The notes under the pieces: model-generated
Databases searched by the model: none
What the model was told of the DNA's origin: nothing
Seen by the model: only the letters and a program-made list of their open reading frames with translations
In this document: positions 25,435 through 44,057 of the stretch, piece by piece
Layout of the letters: each line of letters opens with the position of its first letter
Numbering within the stretch: the first letter of the stretch is position 1
Source of the DNA: Alphaproteobacteria bacterium
GTDB lineage: Bacteria; Pseudomonadota; Alphaproteobacteria; Rhizobiales; JAKIUO01
DNA: 44,132 nucleotides
Assembly (NCBI GenBank): GCA_024279115.1
Contig: JAJRRW010000030.1
Coordinates: forward strand, 1-44,132
Direction of reading: 5' to 3'
Program-made: the position numbers and the translations under genes

Positions 25435-27366
25435 CTAAGCCAGATCAAGATGGCTGCCGGTTTCGTTCATTTGGCGGCCAAGAGCCCCAAACACGGTACG
25501 GATAACCGCCTCTACATCAAGTCCGGCTTTTTGGTACATGATGTCAGGGGCATCATGATCAATAAACTCATCCGGGAGCGCCAATGGTCGCACTTTGAGG
25601 CCGCCGCTGCCCTTGGCATTGTCCAGCAGGCCGTCAAGAGCCAGAAAATTCAGCACCTGCGAGCCAAAACCACCGCTTGCCCCCTCTTCGAGGGTCAGCA
25701 ATACTTCGTGATGGCGCGCCAGTTGGGCAATCAGCTTGGTATCGAGAGGCTTGGCAAAACGGGCATCGACGACCGTTGTGGAAAGTCCAAATCCATCCAG
25801 TTTCGCCGCCGCCGCCAGCGCCACTTCAAGGCGGCCACCAAGGGACAGTAACGCCACCTTGCTGCCTTCCTTGCATACACGCCCCTTGCCAATGGTCAAG
25901 GCGTCGGGCTGATCCGGGATAACCAGACCATCGCCACTGCCGCGTGGATAGCGAAAGGCAATCGGCCCGGCGTCATGAGCAGCACTTGTCACCACCATAC
26001 GGGCCAGCTCCACCTCATCGCTGGCCGCCATCACCACCATATTTGGCAGATTGGACAAAAAAGCCAGATCAAAACTGCCCGCATGGGTTGGACCATCCGC
26101 CCCCACCAGTCCGGCGCGATCAATGGCAAAGCGCACGGGCAGATTCTGGATGGCCACATCATGCACCACCTGATCATAGGCGCGCTGTAAAAAGGTCGAA
26201 TAAATCGCGGCAAAAGGCTTTAACCCGTCGGCCGCCTGCCCCGCCGCAAAGGTCACGGCATGTTGCTCTGCGATGCCCACATCAAAGCACCGATCAGGGT
26301 ATTTTTCGGCAAAGCTCTTTAATCCTGTGCCATCTGGCATGGCGGCGGTAATCGCGGTGATGCGCTTGTCTTTGTCCGCTTCCTTGATCAGCTGATGGGC
26401 GAAAACGCTGGTATAGCTGCGCGCCGTTGATTTTTCCTGCAGGCCGGTCACCACATTAAAGCGGCTGACGCCATGAAACTTGTCGGCGCTTTTTTCGGCG
26501 TGCCCGTAGCCCTTGCCCTTTTGGGTGCGCACATGCAACAAGATCGGCCCCTGCTGCGCGTCTTTAATATTGCGCAAGACGGGCAATAAATGCTCGAAAT
26601 TATGACCATCAATCGGTCCGACATAGTAAAAACCAAGCTCTTCAAAAAAGGTGCCGCCAGCCCACAAGGTGCGCGTGTGCTCTTCCACCCGTCTGGCCCG
26701 CTCTTCCCATTTCTGGGGCAGGATTTTAGCCAGCTGCTTGGCAATATCGCGCAGATAAAGATAGGTACCGCCCGATGACAGGCGCGCAAAATAGGCCGCC
26801 ATGGCACCAACCGGTGGGGCAATCGACATATCATTGTCGTTGAGAATGACGATCATGCGGCTATCCATGGCCCCCGCATTATTCATGGCTTAATAGGCCA
26901 TGCCCGCACTCATGGCGCCATCGCCGATCACCGAGATGATTTTATTGGAGCCTCCCAACTGATCGCGGGCAACCGCCATGCCAAGCCCGGCTGAAATAGA
27001 GGTAGAGCTATGGCCAGCGCCAAACGGGTCATAGTCGCTCTCCTTGCGCTTGGTAAAGCCAGAAAGCCCGCCGCCCTGTCGCTGGGTGCGCATCTGGGCA
27101 CGCCGTCCCGTGAGAATTTTATGAGGATAGGTTTGATGCCCCACATCCCAGATCAACCGGTCCTTTGGGGTATCAAATATCTTGTGCAGAGCGATCGTCA
27201 GTTCCACAACGCCCAGCCCGGCGCCCAGATGCCCGCCGGTCAGCGAAACAATATCAATCATCTCGTCGCGCAACTCGCGCGCCAGTTGCGGCAATTGATC
27301 ATCTTTGAGATGGCGCAGCTGTTTGGGAGTATCGACCGTGTCCAGCAAGGGTGTCTTTGGTGGCAT
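25435..27366 (-). pseudogene. dxs: 1-deoxy-D-xylulose-5-phosphate synthase with an internal stop
   Basis: DXS condenses pyruvate and glyceraldehyde-3-phosphate with thiamine diphosphate, the first step of the MEP isoprenoid pathway. The first part ([40 protein letters not shown]) ends at a TAA at 26887-26889. The second part resumes at the next codon with [10 protein letters not shown] and runs to FGSQVLNFL and a TAG at 25435. Together they give about 643 codons, the normal size. Relatives read GMAYEAMNN, so the lost codon is almost surely GAA. The stop splits the thiamine-binding GDG..NN motif, so neither half could work alone. The start is ATG 27366; a TTG lies one codon earlier. Confidence 0.9.
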
Positions 27367-27719
27367 CAATGTTCCAACTCATAAATTTTACGCCAATTCA
27401 AAAGAGAGCTTTCGCGCCCCCTCATGACGTCTCGACCTGTCATCCAGCCTATACCCAACATGATGACGCCGTGAAGTCAAAATTATGCAATATATGAGCA
27501 AATCCAGTGGTTATTGGTCGCACAGGGCACAATTCGCGCCCGTTTTTGGCTCCGTTTCTTGGCAATTCGCGCCGACAACTTGCCTACTGATATTGCTTTG
27601 CTTCGTCGAGCTGGCCGCTCTCGCGCCCTCAAGCCGCAAAGTGGCAGGGCACCAAAAACAGGCTTGAGCATCGCGAAAGATTTATAGCCACCATCAAATA
27701 CCGTCTCGATATATCCTGC
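27367..27719. other. Intergenic stretch upstream of dxs
   Basis: About 350 bases between the dxs start and the element at 27720. Short open frames exist on both strands, but they have neither RBS nor recognisable sequence. The dxs promoter presumably lies near 27370-27480, and no clear -35/-10 pair stands out. I see nothing else. Confidence 0.5.
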
Positions 27720-32492: not shown

Positions 32493-33443
32493 CTAGCTGC
32501 CACCAAATGCGTCCTTCAGCCAGCTTGCATTGCTGGCCGCTGATTGGCCCGATGTTGATGTAGCAGGCGCGGTTGCCGCCGAACGATAGGTTTCGGCGGC
32601 CTGCTTGTGCCGCTGCGTGGCGCTGGCCGGTGCCGCAGCGCTTTCACTCTTAGCCCCTACCCCAGAACGAGCACTCGCGCGAGCATCACGCACTTTGCCA
32701 GTATCTCCCCAGACACCAATGCTTCCTGGCCCACCAGAGCCATAGCTTGCGCCCCCAAAATCCTCACTTAACGATCCCATAATACCAAAATCGAAGGCCC
32801 CGAACTGGGTCTGCCTCACCCCGGCGCTACTATTCCCAGTATGGCTTTTGATCAAAATACTATGCACCTCTGAAAGAGACCGCGACTTCCCGTCACTATA
32901 AAAAATGGATTTGTTTGCCCTTGCAGCGCTTGGGAAATGCCGACTGGCGGGACTATCGGGCTGGCGCTCGGCAAGATTGATCATTTTTGCGGCACTGCCT
33001 GGCCCCAGAAAATGCGCGAGATAAAGCTCGCCATCTGAGGGCGTGCGACCAATACGGCCTCGCACATAGCGTTCATTATGTTCGGTGTAAGCGGCGGCAA
33101 CCAGCGCTGATGTTTCCGCATCATGACGCATATTAAGAATTTCTCGCCGCTGCCCCTTGTTGGGGACGTAATATTTCCCCGAGCTGGAGCGGCGGATATT
33201 TTTGGCCATATCGGCAAGACCCAACCGGTCGCCATCTTCCTTGACGACCTTTAGCCATGTGCCTTCGATAAACTGGAACAGACCAGCGGCCGAAGAGGAC
33301 GAAGATTTTGCATTGGTCCGAAAGCTGCTTTCGCGCTGAGCCGTATTGACCAGATAGTCAAAGCTCGCGCCAGTACGCTGACTGGCAACGGTAATTGCAT
33401 TTTGCACCTTAACAGGGATCGACGACGTTCTTTGGATGGGCAT
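32493..33443 (-). CDS. Lytic transglycosylase-like (SLT domain) protein without signal peptide
   Basis: This is a 316-residue protein. Residues 10-150 form a lysozyme-like SLT domain: the catalytic Glu is E38 in AQRESSF, followed by SSSAAGLFQFIEGTWL and the conserved later block AAAYTEHNERYV and LYLAHFLGPGSAAKM. These enzymes cleave peptidoglycan between MurNAc and GlcNAc. There is no signal peptide at the N-terminus (MPIQRTSSIPVKVQNAITVA), so export would need another route. The C-terminal 150 residues are low complexity (Ser, Ala, Gly) and probably disordered. GGAG precedes the ATG. Confidence 0.87.
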   Translation of the reverse strand: MPIQRTSSIPVKVQNAITVASQRTGASFDYLVNTAQRESSFRTNAKSSSSSAAGLFQFIEGTWLKVVKEDGDRLGLADMAKNIRRSSSGKYYVPNKGQRREILNMRHDAETSALVAAAYTEHNERYVRGRIGRTPSDGELYLAHFLGPGSAAKMINLAERQPDSPASRHFPSAARANKSIFYSDGKSRSLSEVHSILIKSHTGNSSAGVRQTQFGAFDFGIMGSLSEDFGGASYGSGGPGSIGVWGDTGKVRDARASARSGVGAKSESAAAPASATQRHKQAAETYRSAATAPATSTSGQSAASNASWLKDAFGGS

Positions 33444-33592: not shown

Positions 33593-34192
33593 TTATGAGG
33601 GACTATCCGTGTTGGCAAGCGCTCCAGCAACCGTGTAATCGAAATATCCCAAACGCCCCAGCGCCTTCACCATATCAGCGCTATAGCGCCCGTCTTTTAG
33701 CACCTTGTCATCAATAAAAACCCCAACGACTTCCCCGATCACCATCAAATAGGGGTCGGCCTGCGCGTCAGATGCGGGCAGTTCAACGGTCTGGTGATAC
33801 CGACATTCCAGAGCTGCTGGAGATTTTGCGACGCGCGGCGGCTTGACGAATTGCGAGGGCTTCGACTTGAGCTTGGCCATTTGCATCTCATCGACATGGG
33901 CGGCAACAGAGGCGCCGGTTTTATTGACCTCATCAAACAGCTGCAATGTGGCGACCGAGCAAACAAACTCGCCCTCGCGCTCGGCATTGCGCAAGCTGTC
34001 CTTGCGGCCATGCGATGAAAACATCACATAATGGGGACGATACGAGACCAGGTTAAAAAAGCTGTAGGGCGCAAGATTGACGCCCCCATGCTCGTTAAGG
34101 GTCGAAATCCAGCCGATCGGCCTTGGTGCCACGATGGCTTTCATGGGATCATATTGCAGCCCATGATCATTTTTTCTGGCATCATAATACAT
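33593..34192 (-). CDS. Flavin reductase-like (FMN-binding) family protein
   Basis: This 199-residue protein shows the flavin-reductase-like fold: PMKAIVAPRPIGWISTLNE near the N-terminus binds FMN, followed by NLAPYSFFNLVSYRPHYVMFSSHGRKDSLRN and EFVCSVATLQLFDEVN. The C-terminal VIGEVVGVFIDD and GRLGYFDYTV complete the barrel. Relatives are NAD(P)H:flavin oxidoreductases or flavin partners of monooxygenases. It lies 26 bases downstream of a nitroreductase in the same direction, so the two are probably co-transcribed flavin enzymes. Confidence 0.9.
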   Translation of the reverse strand: MYYDARKNDHGLQYDPMKAIVAPRPIGWISTLNEHGGVNLAPYSFFNLVSYRPHYVMFSSHGRKDSLRNAEREGEFVCSVATLQLFDEVNKTGASVAAHVDEMQMAKLKSKPSQFVKPPRVAKSPAALECRYHQTVELPASDAQADPYLMVIGEVVGVFIDDKVLKDGRYSADMVKALGRLGYFDYTVAGALANTDSPS

Positions 34193-34218
34193 TGGTTCGC
34201 TCCAGACGGACAGCTTGT

Positions 34219-34785
34219 CTAATTTTTCCAGTAGCTCATAAGCTCTTGTGGTTCAACCCTTGGACGCTCTTTGGGTACGATGGCCGGTGTGCCAATATAG
34301 GGGAAACCGGCAACTGATTGTGTTTTTTCAAGGCGCAGCAGCTTGGCAACCTGTTGGTCATAAGCAATCCACTCGGTGATCCATTGGCCGCCAAACCCAA
34401 GCGCCCTGGCGGCATGCAAGATGTTCTGGCACGACGCCCCGGCAGACAATAGCTGCTCGCTGACAGGAACTTTTTCGCTTTCAACGGGACTGGAGATGAC
34501 GGCAATCACCAGCGGCGCCCGCATAAAACGATTGCGCTCATTTTCCAGATGGCGCGGCAGACACTCGTCTCCATGGGTTTGCTCATAAATATCGGCTATG
34601 GCGCGGCCAAAATCAGCCCGCGCATCTTTGGTGAAAACCAAAAATCGCCATGGTGTCAATGCCTTATGGTCTGGCACCCGAATAGCAGCGCGAATCAATT
34701 CGGTGATTTGCGCGCTGTCAGGCCCCGGCTCTCGAAGCTGTGAGGCCACAACCGAGCGGCGCTTCAATAGAAATTGAAGAGGCAT
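34219..34785 (-). CDS. Nitroreductase family protein
   Basis: This 188-residue FMN-dependent nitroreductase of the YdjA-like type opens with LLKRRSVVASQL (FMN contact). Then come RVPDHKALTPWRFLVF, SAGASCQNILHAARALGFGGQWITEW (the characteristic central helix) and GTPAIVPKERPRV. Such proteins reduce nitro groups or quinone-like acceptors with NAD(P)H. It is short, as in the minimal YdjA group. The gene is first in a two-gene unit with the flavin reductase-like gene. The region to the right leads, divergently, into the first vWA gene. Confidence 0.92.
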   Translation of the reverse strand: MPLQFLLKRRSVVASQLREPGPDSAQITELIRAAIRVPDHKALTPWRFLVFTKDARADFGRAIADIYEQTHGDECLPRHLENERNRFMRAPLVIAVISSPVESEKVPVSEQLLSAGASCQNILHAARALGFGGQWITEWIAYDQQVAKLLRLEKTQSVAGFPYIGTPAIVPKERPRVEPQELMSYWKN

Positions 34786-34918: not shown

Positions 34919-36949
34919 ATGCGGAAAACGGCCATGTTGATCGACAAATTCTTACCCCTGAAATTATTTTTCGCCCTGTTGGTGCTCGTCCTTGCGGCCC
35001 CAAACGAGGTCATGAGTGCAGAGCATAAACCGCCGGCCGTGCTGATCATCGACGGTTCTGGCAGTATGTGGGGGCGGCTCAACAAGCGCGAAAAGATTGT
35101 CATCGTCCGGCAGGAGCTGGCGCGACAGCTTGATCTTTTGCGCCCCAGAGTTGAGCTTGGCGTGATGTCCTATGGCCATCGCCGCCGCCGTGATTGTCGC
35201 GATATCGAAATGATCGTCCCCATCAGCCCTATTGACAAAAAAGCCCATAGTCAGGCGGTCAAGCGCTTGTTGCCGCGCGGCAAAACCCCGATTTACAGCG
35301 CCCTGGAGATGGCGGCACAAGGGCTTGAAGCTGCCAGAACAACGCAGACCAAGGGACAGGCCTCCCATATTATACTGGTCGCCGACGGGATAGAGAACTG
35401 CCGCCGAGACCCTTGTGAGACGGCGAGCGCCCTGAAAGCCTAATATCCAGACCTGAAGATTGATGTCATTGGCTTTGCGGTACCTGATGCCGAACGTCCC
35501 CAACTGCAATGTATCGCCAACAACAGCAACGGCCGCTTTCTTGTCGCCAATAGCAAAGACGAATTGCGCGGCGCTATTGTGCAGATTTTCAGCTCCCTTG
35601 GAGCAACCAGCAAGCCACAGATCACCGCCAGGAAAAAACAGGTCAAGAAAATCCCGCCCGGTCTTTATTTGAGCGCTGGCCTGTCGTCCAAGGGGCCACC
35701 ACTTGATGGCAATGTCAGCTGGCGCATATACCCGGCTGGACAAAGCTCAAAAACCGGCGCAACGCCCCTGCAACGCCTCGCCTCTGCCGCTCCTTTTTTA
35801 GCGATGCCAAGCGGCAAATATCATATTGAAGTCCGTCACCAGACATTGCTTGCCGAGCGCGAGGTGGAATTGCGCCCTGATACACCGCTCAAGCTGCGCC
35901 TGAGCTTTGATGTCGGGATTTTCACCGCCAGCGCCAGGCTGGGAGAAGGCACAGCCCTGTCAAACAACATCATTTTTTCCTTGTATGATGCCTCGACGGG
36001 GGGCACCAGCCCGGGCAGGATTATCGCTCATAAACAACAATCCAAAGCCGTATTCTATCTTCCTCCTGGCAAGTACAGCCTCAAGGCAAGAGCCAATGAA
36101 ATGCAAACCCGCCACGACTTTAGCCTGAAGGCTGGAGAGCGCAAAAACCATATCTCGCTGCTGGATGCCGGGGAAATCAGCTTTAACACCCGTCTGGCCA
36201 AAGATCTGCCCATACTTCGCGATGTGCAATATGCAATATATCAGCGCCGCTCCAAAAAGGACGTGGAATTCATCCGCACTCTTGACCCAAATCCAAAACT
36301 GATCCTCCCCAAGGGAGAATATTTCGTTGTCGCCCGTCAAGGAGCAGCCTCCAGCTACACCCGCTTGTTTGTGAAAGCTGGAGATAGCAAAACTGTTTCC
36401 CTCACCCTCAATGCCGGTATTTTAAATCTGTCCTCCAATCTCGACAATGGCGCCAGCGATCAATCCGCGCAGATTGCCTACACGATTGAACCGGTGGATC
36501 GCGATAATTCGAAAACCGTCAAACTGTCAAGCAACAATGCGCTGGTGGAAACCCCGCAATCGTTGCCGACCCGCAGTTTCCGCAATCGATTTGTGTTGCG
36601 TGCGGGAGACTATGTGATCAAGGCGATTTATGGAAATTCGAACGCGCGTGCCCGGGTCCAGGTGCATGTGACCGCAGGGCAAGAAACGGCTCACAAAATC
36701 TCTATGAGTGCCGGCAGGGTCAGGCTTTCCCTTGCTCTAAGTCTGGGCAATCCTCCCCTGCCCGGGGTGTTTTGGAGTATTCTTGACGCCTCTGGCAAAC
36801 AGATCGCCAGTGCCAGTTCGACAACGCCAAGGCTGACATTGGCCAAGGGCAATTATCAGGTTGTGGCCGATTATCTGGGGGAGCGCTACGCCAAGAGCTT
36901 TGTCATCAATAATGGCGACAACAAGCAAATACAGCTGGAGCTGCAATGA
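34919..36949 (+). pseudogene. Exported vWA-domain protein with repeated C-terminal segments, internal stop
   Basis: The full frame of about 676 codons starts with a signal peptide (LKLFFALLVLVLAAP). The von Willebrand A domain follows with MIDAS DGSGSMW, the ILVADGIENC strand and DVIGFAV. The TAA at 35441-35443 falls between ALKA and YPDLKIDVIG, where related vWA proteins have AEYPDLK-like sequence; reading continues in the same frame to 36949. The second half consists of about five beta-rich repeats of 75-80 residues (for example LPPGKYSLKARA, LPKGEYFVVARQ, LAKGNYQVVADY). vWA domains bind protein ligands through a metal. The gene is followed by a related gene at 37059. If the stop is real, the product is a 174-residue fragment ending inside the vWA domain. 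Confidence 0.85.
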
Positions 36950-37058
36950 AAACGGGCCGGTCTTTTCCCGTATCCCTCACAAGGAACCACAGCCCAAATG
37001 CGTCCATAGTTATGCCTTATTTTTTCGACTATGTTCAAGCATAGCGGGGAACCACATT

Positions 37059-39140
37059 ATGAACAATTTTACGCTGCGTGGATCAGCTCTTCGATATACC
37101 CTTCGATACGCCTTGGGGGGAGCTGCTTTGATTGCCGCTCTAATGAGTGCGCACGCCCCGCTCCAAGCCAAACAATTGCCGCAACTGATGATGATTCTCG
37201 ATGCCTCGGCCTCGATGGAAGACAAGCTGACAACCCAGCTCAAATACAAGCTGGTGCGCAAAGCCATGAACAAAGCTTTACCGGCCTATGGCGGCAAGCT
37301 GCAGGCCGGTCTCATCACCTTTGGTCGCAACACGCTAAATTCCTGCACGGACATTTCTTCCGTGATCACTCCCAAACCGCTGAAACCAGCAGCCTTTGGC
37401 AATGTCATCAATAGCATCAAACCCAAAGGCAAGAGCCCTATTGGGGCATCGCTTATAGCGGCCATCAATATGGCAAATGCCAGCTCCAACCCCTCGCACA
37501 TGCTGTTAATGGCCGATGGCAGCGACAATTGCAGCGCCGATATTTGCGCCTCTGCCAATCTCATTGCCACGCGCTCACCGCAAACCAAAATTCACGTCAT
37601 CGGGATCGGCAAAACATCCGCAGTCAAGCGCTTGTCCTGCGTGTCCAAAGCCACCAATGGCATCTTCAGCGCGGTCAATAATGGCGCTGAAATGACCGCC
37701 GCTCTCAAACTGGTCTTACAAACCGTGGTCACCGAAAAACAACCCGCCAGGCCAACGCTGGCCGCATTGGAAACACCGCCCTCTCCCCCTGCAGGTCCGC
37801 TGGAAGAAGCCGCTACCAGACCCGCCATCAAATTCCCCCAGACAGTGCCGCTACCCGCGCGATCTTCCAAACGGTTAAAAGCTGCTATCGTCTCTCAAAA
37901 GGCGATCACGCAGGCGCAAACAGCCGCAAAGACGAGGGTTCAATCCCAGAGCGATACCCTGTCCTCCATTGATAAAACGATCCCCGAAACAGCCCGAACT
38001 GACGCCAAGGGCACAGCGCCAGTCATTTGGCAAAAAATTACCGAAACACCCTCGGTCATTGCGGAAGCCCCTGCCACTGCTGCGCCAGCGACAGCGCCAG
38101 CATCGGCGCCATTTCCCAAAACTGCGATTGCGGCACCAGTTCCAGCCCCAGTTCCGACCAAAGCCCCGGCCCAGGTTCAGGTTCAGGTTCCAGCGCCACC
38201 CCAGATCAAAGCCCCGGCCCAAGTTCAGGCCCAGCTTCAGGCTCCAGCGCCAGCCCAGGTCCCCGCGCCAGTCCCGGTCGCAACTCCAGTCGCGCCCGTG
38301 ACCAAACCAGTCGCTCCGCGCCCCGACACAACCTTTTTGGGCAAAGAACCATCGATAGAAATCACCTTGCCAGAAACCTCCGCCAAGGTGAAATTTAGTG
38401 CGCTCATCACCGAGCAGGGCAAAGCCATCGAAAGTGGATTATTCTGGCGCATATATCAATCGCGCAAAGACGATGACGGGCGCTACAAGCTCGTCAAGTC
38501 AGTAGAAGCGCCTCGATTTGATGACCGACTGCCGCTCGGGGTCTATCTTGTCAATCTATCCTGGGGGCGCTCGCATCTCACCGAGAAACTGGATATTTTG
38601 TCCTCCAAACCCTTTGAGCACAATTTCGTCTTGAACGCCGGTGGTTTGCGCCTTGGGGCGCGGCACGTCGATGGCTCGGTTCTGCCAGCATCACAGGTGG
38701 TCTATCGGATTTATTCCGATGAACGCGATCAGTTTGGCAAGCGCCGCCTGATTCTCGACAATGCCAAACCCGCCCGCACCATCCGCCTGAACGCCGGCAT
38801 CTACCATGTCGCCAGTCTCTACGGCACCGCCAATGGGCTGATTGAGACAGATATCACCATTGAAGCTGGCAAGCTCACCGATGCCGTCATCAACCATAGT
38901 GCCAGCAAGGTGATTTTCAAGCTGGTCAACAAACCAGGAGGGGAAGCTCTGGCCGGGGCAATCTGGCGCATCTCTTCTCCCGATGGAAAACTCATCAAAA
39001 ACGCCGGTGGTGCCTTGCCAAGCCTTATTCTGGCGGCAGGTGATTATCTGATCGATGCCAAATATTCCGGCCGCACCTTCACGCGCAAAGTAACGATTGA
39101 ACCCGGCGCTCCGGTCTATGTGGAACTTGTCATCGAGTAA
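37059..39140 (+). CDS. Exported vWA-domain protein with Pro/Ala/Gln linker and repeated C-terminal segments
   Basis: This 693-residue protein has a signal peptide (ALGGAALIAALMSAHAPLQA). Its vWA domain has MIDAS DASASM near residue 48, LLMADGSDNCSADIC, and IHVIGIGKTSAVKRLSC. Next is a long low-complexity linker of about 280 residues that ends in repeated PAPVQVQ-like segments (38090-38330 in DNA). Three beta-rich repeats follow (LFWRIYQSRKDDDG, VVYRIYSDERDQ, AIWRISSPDGK with LILAAGDYLIDAKYSG). The layout parallels the 34919 gene, suggesting an old duplication. Both would act in the periplasm or on the surface, and the partner is unknown. The ATG at 37059 has GGGGA upstream; a longer frame from 36861 overlaps the preceding gene and is unlikely. 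Confidence 0.88.
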   Translation: MNNFTLRGSALRYTLRYALGGAALIAALMSAHAPLQAKQLPQLMMILDASASMEDKLTTQLKYKLVRKAMNKALPAYGGKLQAGLITFGRNTLNSCTDISSVITPKPLKPAAFGNVINSIKPKGKSPIGASLIAAINMANASSNPSHMLLMADGSDNCSADICASANLIATRSPQTKIHVIGIGKTSAVKRLSCVSKATNGIFSAVNNGAEMTAALKLVLQTVVTEKQPARPTLAALETPPSPPAGPLEEAATRPAIKFPQTVPLPARSSKRLKAAIVSQKAITQAQTAAKTRVQSQSDTLSSIDKTIPETARTDAKGTAPVIWQKITETPSVIAEAPATAAPATAPASAPFPKTAIAAPVPAPVPTKAPAQVQVQVPAPPQIKAPAQVQAQLQAPAPAQVPAPVPVATPVAPVTKPVAPRPDTTFLGKEPSIEITLPETSAKVKFSALITEQGKAIESGLFWRIYQSRKDDDGRYKLVKSVEAPRFDDRLPLGVYLVNLSWGRSHLTEKLDILSSKPFEHNFVLNAGGLRLGARHVDGSVLPASQVVYRIYSDERDQFGKRRLILDNAKPARTIRLNAGIYHVASLYGTANGLIETDITIEAGKLTDAVINHSASKVIFKLVNKPGGEALAGAIWRISSPDGKLIKNAGGALPSLILAAGDYLIDAKYSGRTFTRKVTIEPGAPVYVELVIE
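38090..38335 (+). repeat. Low-complexity Pro/Ala/Val/Gln-coding tandem repeats
   Basis: Short imperfect units such as CAGGTTCAGGTTCCAGCGCC and GCCCCGGCCCAGGTTCAGG recur several times inside the vWA gene at 37059-39140. They encode a flexible linker and probably vary in copy number. Confidence 0.7.
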
Positions 39141-39503: not shown

Positions 39504-40136
39504 CTAATAGCGTCTCCCCCTGCCCCCAAGGGTGATGGAAAGACCAGGACCATCATAGTAAATTCCCGAACGAGGGCCCCGACCATGATGAGCTCCGCCA
39601 CTCCGTCTGCCATAACCACACCAACCGCGACGATCACGATCCATGATCCGTCCCCAACGGTTCAGGCGCAGAGCATATCTTTTGCCATTTCGGCAAACTT
39701 TTGCGCCGTAGCCGGGCAAACGTCTGTCAGTGAATCTAATCTTGTGATATCCACGATCGCGCAGTCCGGCACGAATTTGCGGGAAGCTTAGACCGGCTGA
39801 ACCATGTCGATACCCACCACAACGACCAATGCGGACGCGTCGATTGATATCTCCCCAACGATTGAGGCGTAATCTGAATTTTTTACCGTTGCGGCATGCC
39901 TTTACTTTGTAAACAGGGAGCCGACGGTCGATAAAACGAATATTGCGATATCCACGATCACGCAGGCTGCGGCGAATACCACGAGGCGACAAAGCCACCG
40001 TTTTGGCCAGCGATTCGACCGGGACATACATGTGAGCGCGGGCACTAGCGCCAGCACCAGCAGCAAAGGCCGATGAACTGGCAGCAACAGCTGTTGCCGC
40101 CAAAACGCCCAATCCGACTAACATTTTATGGGTCAT
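39504..40136 (-). CDS. Very basic exported protein with two internal repeats
   Basis: The 210-residue precursor has a signal peptide (LVGLGVLAATAVAASSSAFAAGA). The mature protein holds two copies of a unit of about 65 residues: LRDRGYRNIRFIDRRLPVYKVKACRNGKKFRLRLNRWG.. near residue 60 and LRDRGYHKIRFTDRRLPGYGAKVCRNGKRYALRLNRWG.. near 120, each with two cysteines. It closes with a Gly/Arg-rich tail. The estimated charge is strongly positive. It resembles small PepSY-like or LPS/DNA-binding envelope proteins only in character; I know no family by name. It faces the vWA gene at 37059. Confidence 0.82.
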   Translation of the reverse strand: MTHKMLVGLGVLAATAVAASSSAFAAGAGASARAHMYVPVESLAKTVALSPRGIRRSLRDRGYRNIRFIDRRLPVYKVKACRNGKKFRLRLNRWGDINRRVRIGRCGGYRHGSAGLSFPQIRAGLRDRGYHKIRFTDRRLPGYGAKVCRNGKRYALRLNRWGRIMDRDRRGWCGYGRRSGGAHHGRGPRSGIYYDGPGLSITLGGRGRRY

Positions 40137-40622
40137 TATTCTATTCCTTTCTTTATTTATACTCGGCCATTACCAAGCTTGACACCAGTAATAGCCAAGG
40201 TTGCCTGAACCAAACTGGAAAGCTTCATTCATCTCGCGTTCATATTAGCGTTTTTTTTACCAGAGATAAAAATGCACCCCGGCAAGGGCAGAATGCGACT
40301 CGGTTTGACCTGAAGAATAATATTATTAGGGCACAAATACGCAGCTTGTAAATGTGAAACAGGCGAAGTTGTTGTGGCCAACCCATCTGGCGCTACTGCC
40401 CTGCCGGGCTTGTATACATGCTGTATCGACAGTACAAACCATTTACAGCGATGATTGCAGCCATTACAGCCATTTTCGCGGCACTGGCTCCTTGTGTGCA
40501 GGAGATGCTTATTTGCTAAACGGGCTATTTTGGCCCCGTAGCCAAAGCCGCTATCTCTGGCGTTGAGGGCCGATGATTTGCAAATCGCCCTGATAGCCCT
40601 CCTATGAAGGCTTGTCCTCGCA
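40137..40622. other. Intergenic stretch with no gene seen
   Basis: 486 bases between the basic exported protein and the hydrolase remnant. Short open frames occur without RBS support. The left part (about 40140-40220) is A+T-rich and may hold the promoter of the gene at 39504-40136. I see no stable hairpin with a T-run. Confidence 0.5.
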
Positions 40623-41501
40623 TCACAGGTCCATCAGGCGCCTTAGCACGTCTTCAAAATGGTCAAAAATCCAGAAATGGCCCTGCCCCGGCAATGGGAC
40701 GATTTCCACGCCGACAATGCTGTGAGCCAGTTTGTAAGCCGCGCGCTCTGGCACCATCTGGTCCTGTGACCCTTGCCAAAAAATCACTGGGGCCTCGATA
40801 TTGTTGAGGGGAATCTGCCAGGGGGTCGCAAACAGACGCAGATCTTCCGTGAGACCGCTGACCCCGGATGCCAAGGCGTCATGAAACGCCGCCAGCAACG
40901 CATTTTGGTGACGAGGGTCCTTTAAAATCAACTGATCTGGAGCCGCAAGGCTAACAGCAAATATTTTCAAAAATGCTATGGGGGCACGCATAATCGAGAA
41001 CCGCGCAAGGTGCAAAACCGGTTTTGCCAGAACGGGATGGCGCGGCAGCGCACCAAAGAACAAACGATGGCGCCAGCACCAGTCCCGCCGCCCCTCTTGA
41101 TCAAAAATCCCCACAGGGCTGACCAGCGCCATGCCATGCACCCGTTGCGGCATCAAAGCGGCAAGGGCGCTCGCAAACGGCCCACCGCCAGACACGCCAA
41201 ACAACCAGAAGCGGTCGATCTTCAACGAGGCGAGCAGCGTCTTAATATCACTTGTCCATTGAACAAAACACTAGTCCGGGCAAGCCGTCGAGAGCCCATA
41301 TCCAGGCCTGTCGGGGGCGATCAGCATAATCTTGTTCTGACGGGCAAACTGATCGGCTGGCTGCATCATGATGCGAGAACCAGGGGTGCCGTGAATGGCA
41401 AGCAGCGGGCGGCCGTTGGGATCACCATAGCGCGCATATCCCATCAATCGCCCGTCGGGCAGTTGAACAATATTATGATCATCGGGTGAGTTGTCAGCCA
41501 T
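40623..41501 (-). pseudogene. Alpha/beta hydrolase with an internal TAG
   Basis: The combined frame (about 292 codons) reads as a normal alpha/beta hydrolase. The N-terminus has LPDGRLMGYARYGDPNGRPL, then AIHGTPGSRIMM (oxyanion loop HGTPG) and PDRPGYGLS. The nucleophile elbow is GVSGGGPFA and the His is near the end (PLPGQGHFWIF). A TAG at 41274-41272 on the minus strand comes directly after STACPD. The next codons CFVQWTSDIKTLLASL continue the helix expected before the nucleophile. The start ATG overlaps the stop of the small gene at 41494-41781. If the stop is real, only a short fragment is made. Confidence 0.8.
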
Positions 41502-43199: not shown

Positions 43200-43871
43200 C
43201 TATTTGGGATGAGTTGGAAGGTCTGACCAGTCAAATTCATCCCCGCAAAACGGGATAAAGACAAGCTGCGTATTGCCCATGGAAATAATATCATAGGGCA
43301 TCAGCCGCACCGCTGAAGTGGGCTTCACATTGTCTATTGATACGACATTGGTTTTGGCGAGATTGGGAATGAACAAAAACTGCCGATCATCTGCATCATA
43401 GCGGATATAAGCCTGCTCTTGCTTGGAGATATATTCGTCGCCACAATCAATCGGAATACGCTGATCAGATGCGGAACCGACGGTATTGGAGCCCGTAAAA
43501 ATCGGGCGATGCGCGCCAATGCCGGGCCCACCGACCACCACCAGCCAGCCAACCACCGGCTCTTGATAATATTTCAACTCTTCATCGCTGCCGCCAAATA
43601 CCTTGGTTTTTGGACCACTGGATTCTTGCGTTACTTCAACGGCCGCATCGCTTGGCCTCTCGCCCTGGACAGGCGCGGCCTTGGCGCCGGGAACATTTTA
43701 CACACTTGGAGCCGCTTCATTGTGGGGGCTTTGACTTTCCTTGTCGTCCCCCTGACCAAGCGCTGCCAGCGCTTCTTTAAGGCTTGTTGAGCGTGTTTCA
43801 GGTGTTGCATGCGGTCGCTCTTTAGCCGGTCCGCCTTTGCCTGGATCATCTGATCCGCTTTGACTAGTCAT
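43200..43871 (-). pseudogene. FHA-domain protein with an internal stop
   Basis: The combined frame is about 223 codons. The N-terminal third is polar and probably disordered (MTSQSGSDDPGKGG, SLKEALAALGQGDD). After a TAA at 43698-43700 the frame continues with NVPGAKAAP and KTKVFGG. The second half is the FHA domain: VGWLVVVGGPG, TVGSASDQRI, and LMPYDIISMGNTQLVF, ending with FCGDEFDWSDLP. FHA domains bind phosphothreonine peptides. Since the stop lies in the linker, the original codon cannot be read from conservation, though GAA (VENV) is one base away. Truncation would remove the whole FHA domain. ATG 43871 with AAAGGAAC upstream is the likely start. Confidence 0.8.
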
Positions 43872-44057
43872 CGAATACTTGTTCCTTTTATTGTCATGAA
43901 CCCATTGACCAATAATGCCCCGATTTAGCTGTGCCAGAACACCATCAATCCAACAGCCATGCAAGTCGTTTTTATGACCTCGTATTGCAGCCAATTACAT
44001 TGTGTGATCTGGTGTAATAAATAGTCGAATTCAAAAAAGCTTGCCATTTGAGGATCC
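43872..44057. promoter_or_regulatory. Divergent promoter region between the FHA and kinase genes
   Basis: 186 bases separate the two divergent starts, so both promoters must lie here. The left half is moderately A+T-rich. I see no clear -35/-10 pair nor palindrome to name. Confidence 0.5.

Follow-up and report, generated by a model that had tools for sequence, protein, structure and literature searches.

A candidate RgsD orthologue with an N-terminal vWA domain, and its tandem paralogue, in an MreB-bearing lineage of the Hyphomicrobiales

Results

A probable vWA-containing form of RgsD

Two tandem genes in the stretch of DNA analyzed here (hereafter the window: 44,132 nucleotides, contig JAJRRW010000030.1 of assembly GCA_024279115.1, from an alphaproteobacterium of the order Rhizobiales) appear to encode a variant of RgsD, a growth-zone protein of Sinorhizobium meliloti, together with a relative of it. 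Both genes lie on the forward strand, at 34919-36949 (P1) and 37059-39140 (P2), and are separated by 109 bases. The explanation that we consider probable is that P2 is an RgsD orthologue fused to an N-terminal von Willebrand factor A (vWA) domain, that P1 is its paralogue, and that P2 serves the growth machinery as a wall-bound scaffold. Homology, synteny, predicted fold, domain architecture, distribution and coexistence with MreB, all observed in this study, are its basis. Features of the two genes are listed below; MIDAS denotes the metal-ion-dependent adhesion site of vWA domains.

34919-36949, forward strand: P1, predicted-export protein with a vWA domain and five RgsD-type beta-sandwich domains, 676 codons with one in-frame stop; uninterrupted relatives cited for the gene model, L034-L037
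35024-35605, forward strand: vWA domain of P1, MIDAS D-S-S-T-D, four conserved Cys, the fourth past the stop
35441-35443, forward strand: in-frame TAA in the vWA domain of P1
35660-36946, forward strand: five repeats of P1, starting near 35660, 35915, 36170, 36416 and 36713
37059-39140, forward strand: P2, vWA-RgsD fusion, intact single open frame of 693 amino acids
37059-37175, forward strand: signal-peptide-like segment of P2, seen by eye
37185-37733, forward strand: vWA domain of P2, MIDAS D-S-S-S-D, four conserved Cys
37755-38369, forward strand: Ala/Pro-rich linker of P2, 20% Ala and 18% Pro over 205 residues
38379-38630, forward strand: RgsD domain 1 of P2, seven strands
38637-38897, forward strand: RgsD domain 2 of P2, seven strands; the most conserved part, with YGxxN and EAGKLT-type motifs
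38904-39137, forward strand: RgsD domain 3 of P2, seven strands

Both proteins begin with a hydrophobic, signal-like segment (by eye) and carry, at the C-terminus, beta repeats that are each about 75-100 residues long. When named plasmid records were searched at the protein level, the repeat module turned up in strain Ak57 of S. meliloti, where a hypothetical protein of 331 amino acids is encoded with thrS on one side and a divergent nitroreductase/flavin reductase pair on the other. The P2 tri-domain is 36% identical to this protein over 250 amino acids (E 1e-51), the two being homologous over the whole three-domain region, and the same enzyme pair is the divergent neighbor of the tandem genes in the window (33593-34785). 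The signal-like segment of the S. meliloti protein ends at about residue 27, which fits the published construct RgsD28-331, and the protein has no Pfam domain, in keeping with RgsD. Counting genes from tpiA, which is SMc01023 (PMC13001267), through the listed genes and one unlisted 380-codon gene, leads to SMc01011. Since length and signal cut, similarity to the Bacillus anthracis TIE protein (BaTIE) and RrgC, lack of a Pfam domain and locus-tag count all fit, the case that the relative is RgsD (SMc01011) is strong but indirect.

SMc01011 was named RgsD and was pulled down with RgsA, RgsB, RgsP and RgsM; it is periplasmic by PhoA fusion, localizes to the growing pole and septum, could not be knocked out, and upon depletion leaves short round cells (PMC7327166). 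The same source reports that purified RgsD28-331 is retained with peptidoglycan, that SWISS-MODEL finds BaTIE and RrgC to be similar to it, that RgsD occurs only in Rhizobiales, and that it may position or regulate synthesis factors; essentiality of smc01011 was confirmed by targeted knock-out (PMC5929573).

The RgsD profile used in this study comprises 36 tri-repeats (alignment A1) and spans the whole module; a second alignment, A2, with a badly chosen reference, was not used. When the profile was built without the genus of the window, the P1 repeat region scored 198.8 bits, as against 4.8 bits for the best of 500 shuffles, and its similarity to RgsD is therefore not due to chance. By eye P1 contains five repeats, the last three of which align with the three of P2, that is, with the RgsD tri-domain. 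P1 is accordingly best described, from these alignments, as a putative tandem paralogue of P2 with a vWA domain and five RgsD-type domains, and P2 as a candidate RgsD orthologue, filed as a variant rather than as the rhizobial form. Likeness to RgsD of S. meliloti extends to the three C-terminal domains, the signal-like segment, the flavin reductase/nitroreductase neighbors, restriction to the order and fold similarity to BaTIE and RrgC. On the other hand, the S. meliloti protein (331 amino acids) lacks a vWA domain, whereas P2 (693 amino acids) has a vWA head and a long linker, and the window form also differs in having a five-domain paralogue in tandem and in coexisting with MreB.

Fold of the repeats and matches to known domains

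An AlphaFold2 model of the P2 tri-repeat, computed from 12 rows taken exclusively from the window and L032/L033, contains 21 strands arranged as three domains of seven, with a mean pLDDT (predicted local distance difference test) of 89.9; the full-length model of P1 was poor (mean pLDDT 58.3) and was left unused. An earlier, sequence-only reading of this DNA had proposed tandem exported vWA proteins with C-terminal beta repeats and had suggested structure prediction as a check; the by-eye signals, the Pfam vWA matches and the P2 model bear out that architecture. It had also taken the repeat for one without a name, and this holds for both Pfam, which has no dedicated model, and NCBIfam, scans of the two giving no confident name. 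A match of the repeats to a known domain of known role, which would have overturned that reading, was nearly obtained through RgsD, with no domain name from Pfam or NCBIfam attached to it.

Weak Pfam matches among the 36 tri-repeat members were to the carboxypeptidase regulatory-like family PF13620 (24/36), SpaA (14/36) and the NOMO transthyretin-like family (7/36). PF13620 reaches 34.8 bits summed over the repeats of P1, above the cut-off of 32.3, yet no single stretch passes, and the P2 tri-domain has no match to it. NCBIfam matches to a type IX secretion system (T9SS) sorting domain and to CglB were weak and were dropped, and sequence searches of the PDB gave no match below E 0.05. In Foldseek the P2 tri-domain model ranked first against 6fwv (the B. 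anthracis TIE protein) and third against 4oq1, which we take to be RrgC, a streptococcal ancillary pilin. VIA-align returned Z values of 8 to 11 against single prealbumin-like domains of many functions, among them 8bdw (Z 9.8, root-mean-square deviation 2.5 over 80 residues) and 2x5p (Z 9.3, deviation 2.0 over 80). The fold is common, and matches from these two programs were therefore not used as evidence of function.

The prealbumin-like isopeptide domains of the CnaB/SpaA type (BaTIE, RrgC, the parent of SpyCatcher) thus share a beta-sandwich fold and weak profile similarity with the window repeats. In a weak alignment with 4mli (E 0.054), obtained for domain 3 only, a Glu of 4mli that is presumably catalytic for isopeptide bond formation falls on a nearly invariant Ala. 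CnaB-type isopeptide chemistry is therefore unlikely in domain 3, and no sortase signal was seen, a further difference from the CnaB/SpaA proteins. Domain 3 also contains a nearly invariant Lys in its first strand and Glu in its last (tri-domain residues 185 and 253; window 38919-38921 and 39123-39125), which might be joined by a salt bridge or by a cross-link of an unusual kind.

The vWA domains

Pfam assigns the vWA domain of P1 to PF13519 (1.5e-10) and that of P2 to PF00092 (4e-6). A full MIDAS had been claimed for both proteins; it is complete in P1, but P2 has Ser at the Thr position. The site is complete in 11 of 29 vWA domains fused to RgsD and in 16 of the 30 others; four Cys, by contrast, are conserved in 27/29 and 28/30, respectively. 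Because the cysteines are conserved while the MIDAS is often incomplete, the domain would seem to be a binding head stabilized by disulfides and not one that depends strictly on metal. Extracytoplasmic alphaproteobacterial records annotated as VWA domain-containing proteins (Paracoccus, Roseovarius, Agrobacterium plasmids) have a vWA domain about 40% identical to that of P1; most of those listed align with P1 in the vWA part only, not in the repeats.

The in-frame stop of P1

P1 is not a single open frame: the TAA interrupts its vWA domain, a break overlooked when the pair was read as two whole genes. The P1 counterparts in the same-genus relatives L032, L033 and L034 (L032 and L033 are the same contigs as in genomes G002 and G003) likewise have 676 codons and no stop, and that of a fourth, L037, is also uninterrupted; intact copies of P1 thus exist. 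The stop may be either a true nonsense change or an error of the 145-contig assembly. Recoding of the TAA was rejected: P2 also ends in TAA, and in-frame stops of this genome hit residues that differ in the relatives. Other genes with isolated in-frame stops by comparison with same-genus relatives lie at 26404-27378, 43203-43994 and 40611-41474 of the window and at 738-4022 of L114; among these interrupted genes are one otherwise 95.7% identical to its relative and an RgsP-like gene. Assembly errors or gene decay could account for these stops.

Distribution and arrangement across the order

The RgsD profile matched 184 of 199 genomes of the order Hyphomicrobiales (Rhizobiales). In a class-wide sample of 192 genomes, the three belonging to the order all matched, as did 15 of the 189 others, weakly, mostly in part and at best with E 6.6e-23; this distribution agrees with the published statement of exclusivity to Rhizobiales (PMC7327166). 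The 15 genomes of the order that lack RgsD fall in four families (f4, f5, f22, f50), in one of which the genomes measure 1.3-1.5 Mb, and true MreB is absent from all 15. P1-type proteins are less restricted, an intact P1 query matching 15 of 96 class genomes, two of which belong to the order; most of these matches cover the vWA domain alone, while one (G236) covers vWA and repeats.

Four arrangements of the RgsD locus were distinguished among 77 genomes: vWA-RgsD or bare RgsD, each either with P1 or without it. The genus of the window has vWA-RgsD with P1, and RgsD of the rhizobia (S. meliloti) is bare. Loci added in a second batch were selected in part because their RgsD frames were long, which biases proportions at the genome level and affects family-level counts less. 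In a tree of 74 tri-domains (G029, G195 and G053 left out), bare RgsD without P1 falls mostly in one large clade, with support of 83 to 86 at its base, and in a few separate cases; on this unrooted tree, presence of vWA at the locus needs 4 changes and MreB 9. Neither the vWA-RgsD fusion nor a role for the vWA head or P1 was found in the literature searched, a search that did not extend to supplementary files. The occurrence in many families of RgsD fused to a disulfide-rich vWA head, and/or next to a paralogue with vWA and five repeats, looks new.

Coexistence of RgsD with MreB

PF06723 finds a match in each of the 199 genomes of the order, since related actin-fold proteins cross-match; with true MreB defined by E below 1e-100 it is present in 24, the next best match being 1.8e-18. 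All 24, including the genome of the window, carry RgsD. MreC exceeds its cut-off in 18 of the 199, all within these 24; in the remaining six MreB-bearing genomes no MreC match rises above it. In the genome of the window, mreB and mreC stand in a row with a weak match to mreD, a gene for a PBP2-type transpeptidase and the beginning of a RodA-type gene. Rgs proteins and MreB have been stated to be mutually exclusive (PMC7327166), a statement that was based on four MreB-bearing species; confinement of RgsD to MreB-less genomes is contradicted by the 24 genomes with both. That some members of the order keep MreB is not in itself a new observation, because loss of mreB and pbp2 has been placed within Rhizobiales (PMC12130487); coexistence of RgsD and MreB was not found in print in the literature searched. 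As all MreB-bearing genomes carry RgsD, RgsD was probably present before the Rod system was lost.

By family, vWA occurs at the RgsD locus in 9/9 MreB-bearing and 10/36 MreB-lacking families (Fisher p 1e-4, treating as independent families that are not); by genome the counts are 22/22 and 16/49. These counts drop G041 (contig break) and G195 (frameshifts), and G004, G013, G019 and G029 lie outside the MreB sample. A phylogenetic test yielded only four independent pairs on supported branches, too few to decide. The pattern is strong by family and is consistent with shared ancestry.

In a choice of 24 genomes, a 7TMR-DISM profile gave matches in 22, and in 16 of these it exceeded the cut-off. 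The same-genus genome G002 has a full-length 7TMR-PAS-GGDEF-EAL copy, 42% identical over 946 residues to a copy with its domains in the same sequence in G026, a genome without MreB; the 7TMR-GGDEF-EAL gene in the genome of the window is, like P1, split by one in-frame stop. Judged by domain order and similarity, these proteins are putatively RgsP. In the genome of the window the RgsP-like gene and the mreBCD-pbp2-rodA run share one contig of 40.8 kb (G000 C68; L123, L114). Best-match frames of an apolipoprotein-like profile (possibly GPR/RgsE-like) in 24 genomes tend to be longer where MreB is lacking, at about 1050-2340 amino acids, and shorter where it is present, at about 710-1500; the profile is a loose coiled-coil match that also picks up other coiled coils, and gives no clean call of RgsE/GPR.

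Neighboring genes

A survey of the gene neighborhood, which the sequence-only reading had suggested, compared 39 loci, antisense frames from greedy open reading frame calling (clusters c4, c15) being discarded. The flavin reductase/nitroreductase pair lies at the S. meliloti rgsD locus as well. The thrS cluster is present in 19 of the 39 loci and absent from the window itself. The upstream neighbors are:

34219-34785, reverse strand: nitroreductase, divergent neighbor, also kept at the S. meliloti rgsD locus
33593-34192, reverse strand: flavin reductase family protein, conserved rgsD neighbor
32493-33443, reverse strand: SLT lytic-transglycosylase-like protein, conserved neighbor in many relatives, its cluster in 16/39 loci

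At 39504-40136 lies a gene for a small, exported-looking protein with two copies of an RGYRNIRFIDRRLPxYxVKxCRNGK-like motif and no Pfam match, whose cluster occurs in 4/39 loci.

Discussion

The pair had been proposed to constitute an undescribed adhesion or assembly system. This proposal gives way to the finding that the tri-repeat is RgsD, a published peptidoglycan-binding protein of growth zones, and by analogy with S. meliloti the genes would encode wall-growth protein(s) rather than an adhesin. P1 and P2 would be exported to the periplasm, where the RgsD-type beta-sandwich domains may attach to the peptidoglycan sacculus at sites where wall is being made. In P2, a long linker rich in Ala and Pro would present the disulfide-stabilized vWA head to a partner, so that P2 would act as a scaffold, held by the wall, on which the growth machinery could assemble or be placed. 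For the organism of the window, location in the periplasm, binding to peptidoglycan, essentiality and placement at pole and septum are expectations extended from bare RgsD of S. meliloti, and the disulfides and partner binding by the head are likewise predictions. In the rhizobia the tri-domain alone, with no vWA part, is essential, whereas P2 of the window has both.

Several points weigh against the reading of P2 and P1 as wall-bound growth proteins. The tag SMc01011 was obtained by counting, as the record itself does not show it; the published RgsD model and the present model of P2 are both predictions; P1 is broken in this genome; and no experiment on any vWA-RgsD protein was found in the literature searched. 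MIDAS residues that are not strictly conserved speak against simple metal-dependent binding by the vWA domain. Finally, given the Rod operon, growth of the organism need not be polar, and P2 may act in a different setting.

This last point leads to the proposal that vWA-RgsD and P1 serve the MreB/PBP2/RodA elongasome or the divisome and not a polar zone, RgsD having been recruited to polar growth later. The presence of RgsD in all MreB-bearing genomes, and of vWA at the locus in every classifiable one and in all nine of their families, gives this an appreciable, though less than even, chance; against it stand the small number of pairs on supported branches, four, that bear on whether vWA and MreB are associated independently of phylogeny, and the presence of vWA at the locus in many lineages that lack MreB. 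A different reading of the same head, which we judge unlikely, is that RgsD derives from a P1-like vWA-repeat protein and that the vWA domain is a remnant being lost, with no function of its own. The decay of the MIDAS, the repeated absence of vWA from RgsD and the P1-like vWA-plus-repeat protein outside the order (G236) would all suit a remnant, but its four cysteines are kept almost throughout and the domain persists in many families. That the pair forms a surface adhesin or a pilus-like system, with a vWA head on a CnaB-like stalk as in Gram-positive pilus adhesins, appears very improbable and was set aside. The Gram-positive pilins and CnaB/SpaA-type domains in the Foldseek and VIA-align lists, and the weak SpaA matches, are what such a system might show; yet the C-terminus ends on the last strand with no sortase motif or membrane anchor seen by eye, the catalytic Glu position of CnaB is occupied by Ala in domain 3, and the close relative for which there are data, RgsD of S. 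meliloti, is periplasmic and binds peptidoglycan.

How the Hyphomicrobiales came to unipolar growth without MreB is an open question on which the distributions of RgsD and MreB bear. In the data, the origin of RgsD and the loss of MreB come apart as separate events, and the published statement of exclusivity is corrected. We would tentatively suggest, as one possible course among others, that MreB-bearing lineages, including that of the window, are living intermediates between MreB-guided and unipolar growth, in which vWA-RgsD works beside the Rod complex, and that the bare RgsD of rhizobia, essential and polar, is what remained once the vWA head and, in several lineages, MreB as well had been lost. 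In lineages that have MreB, RgsD and vWA at the locus, the order of events on the way to polar growth is directly testable.

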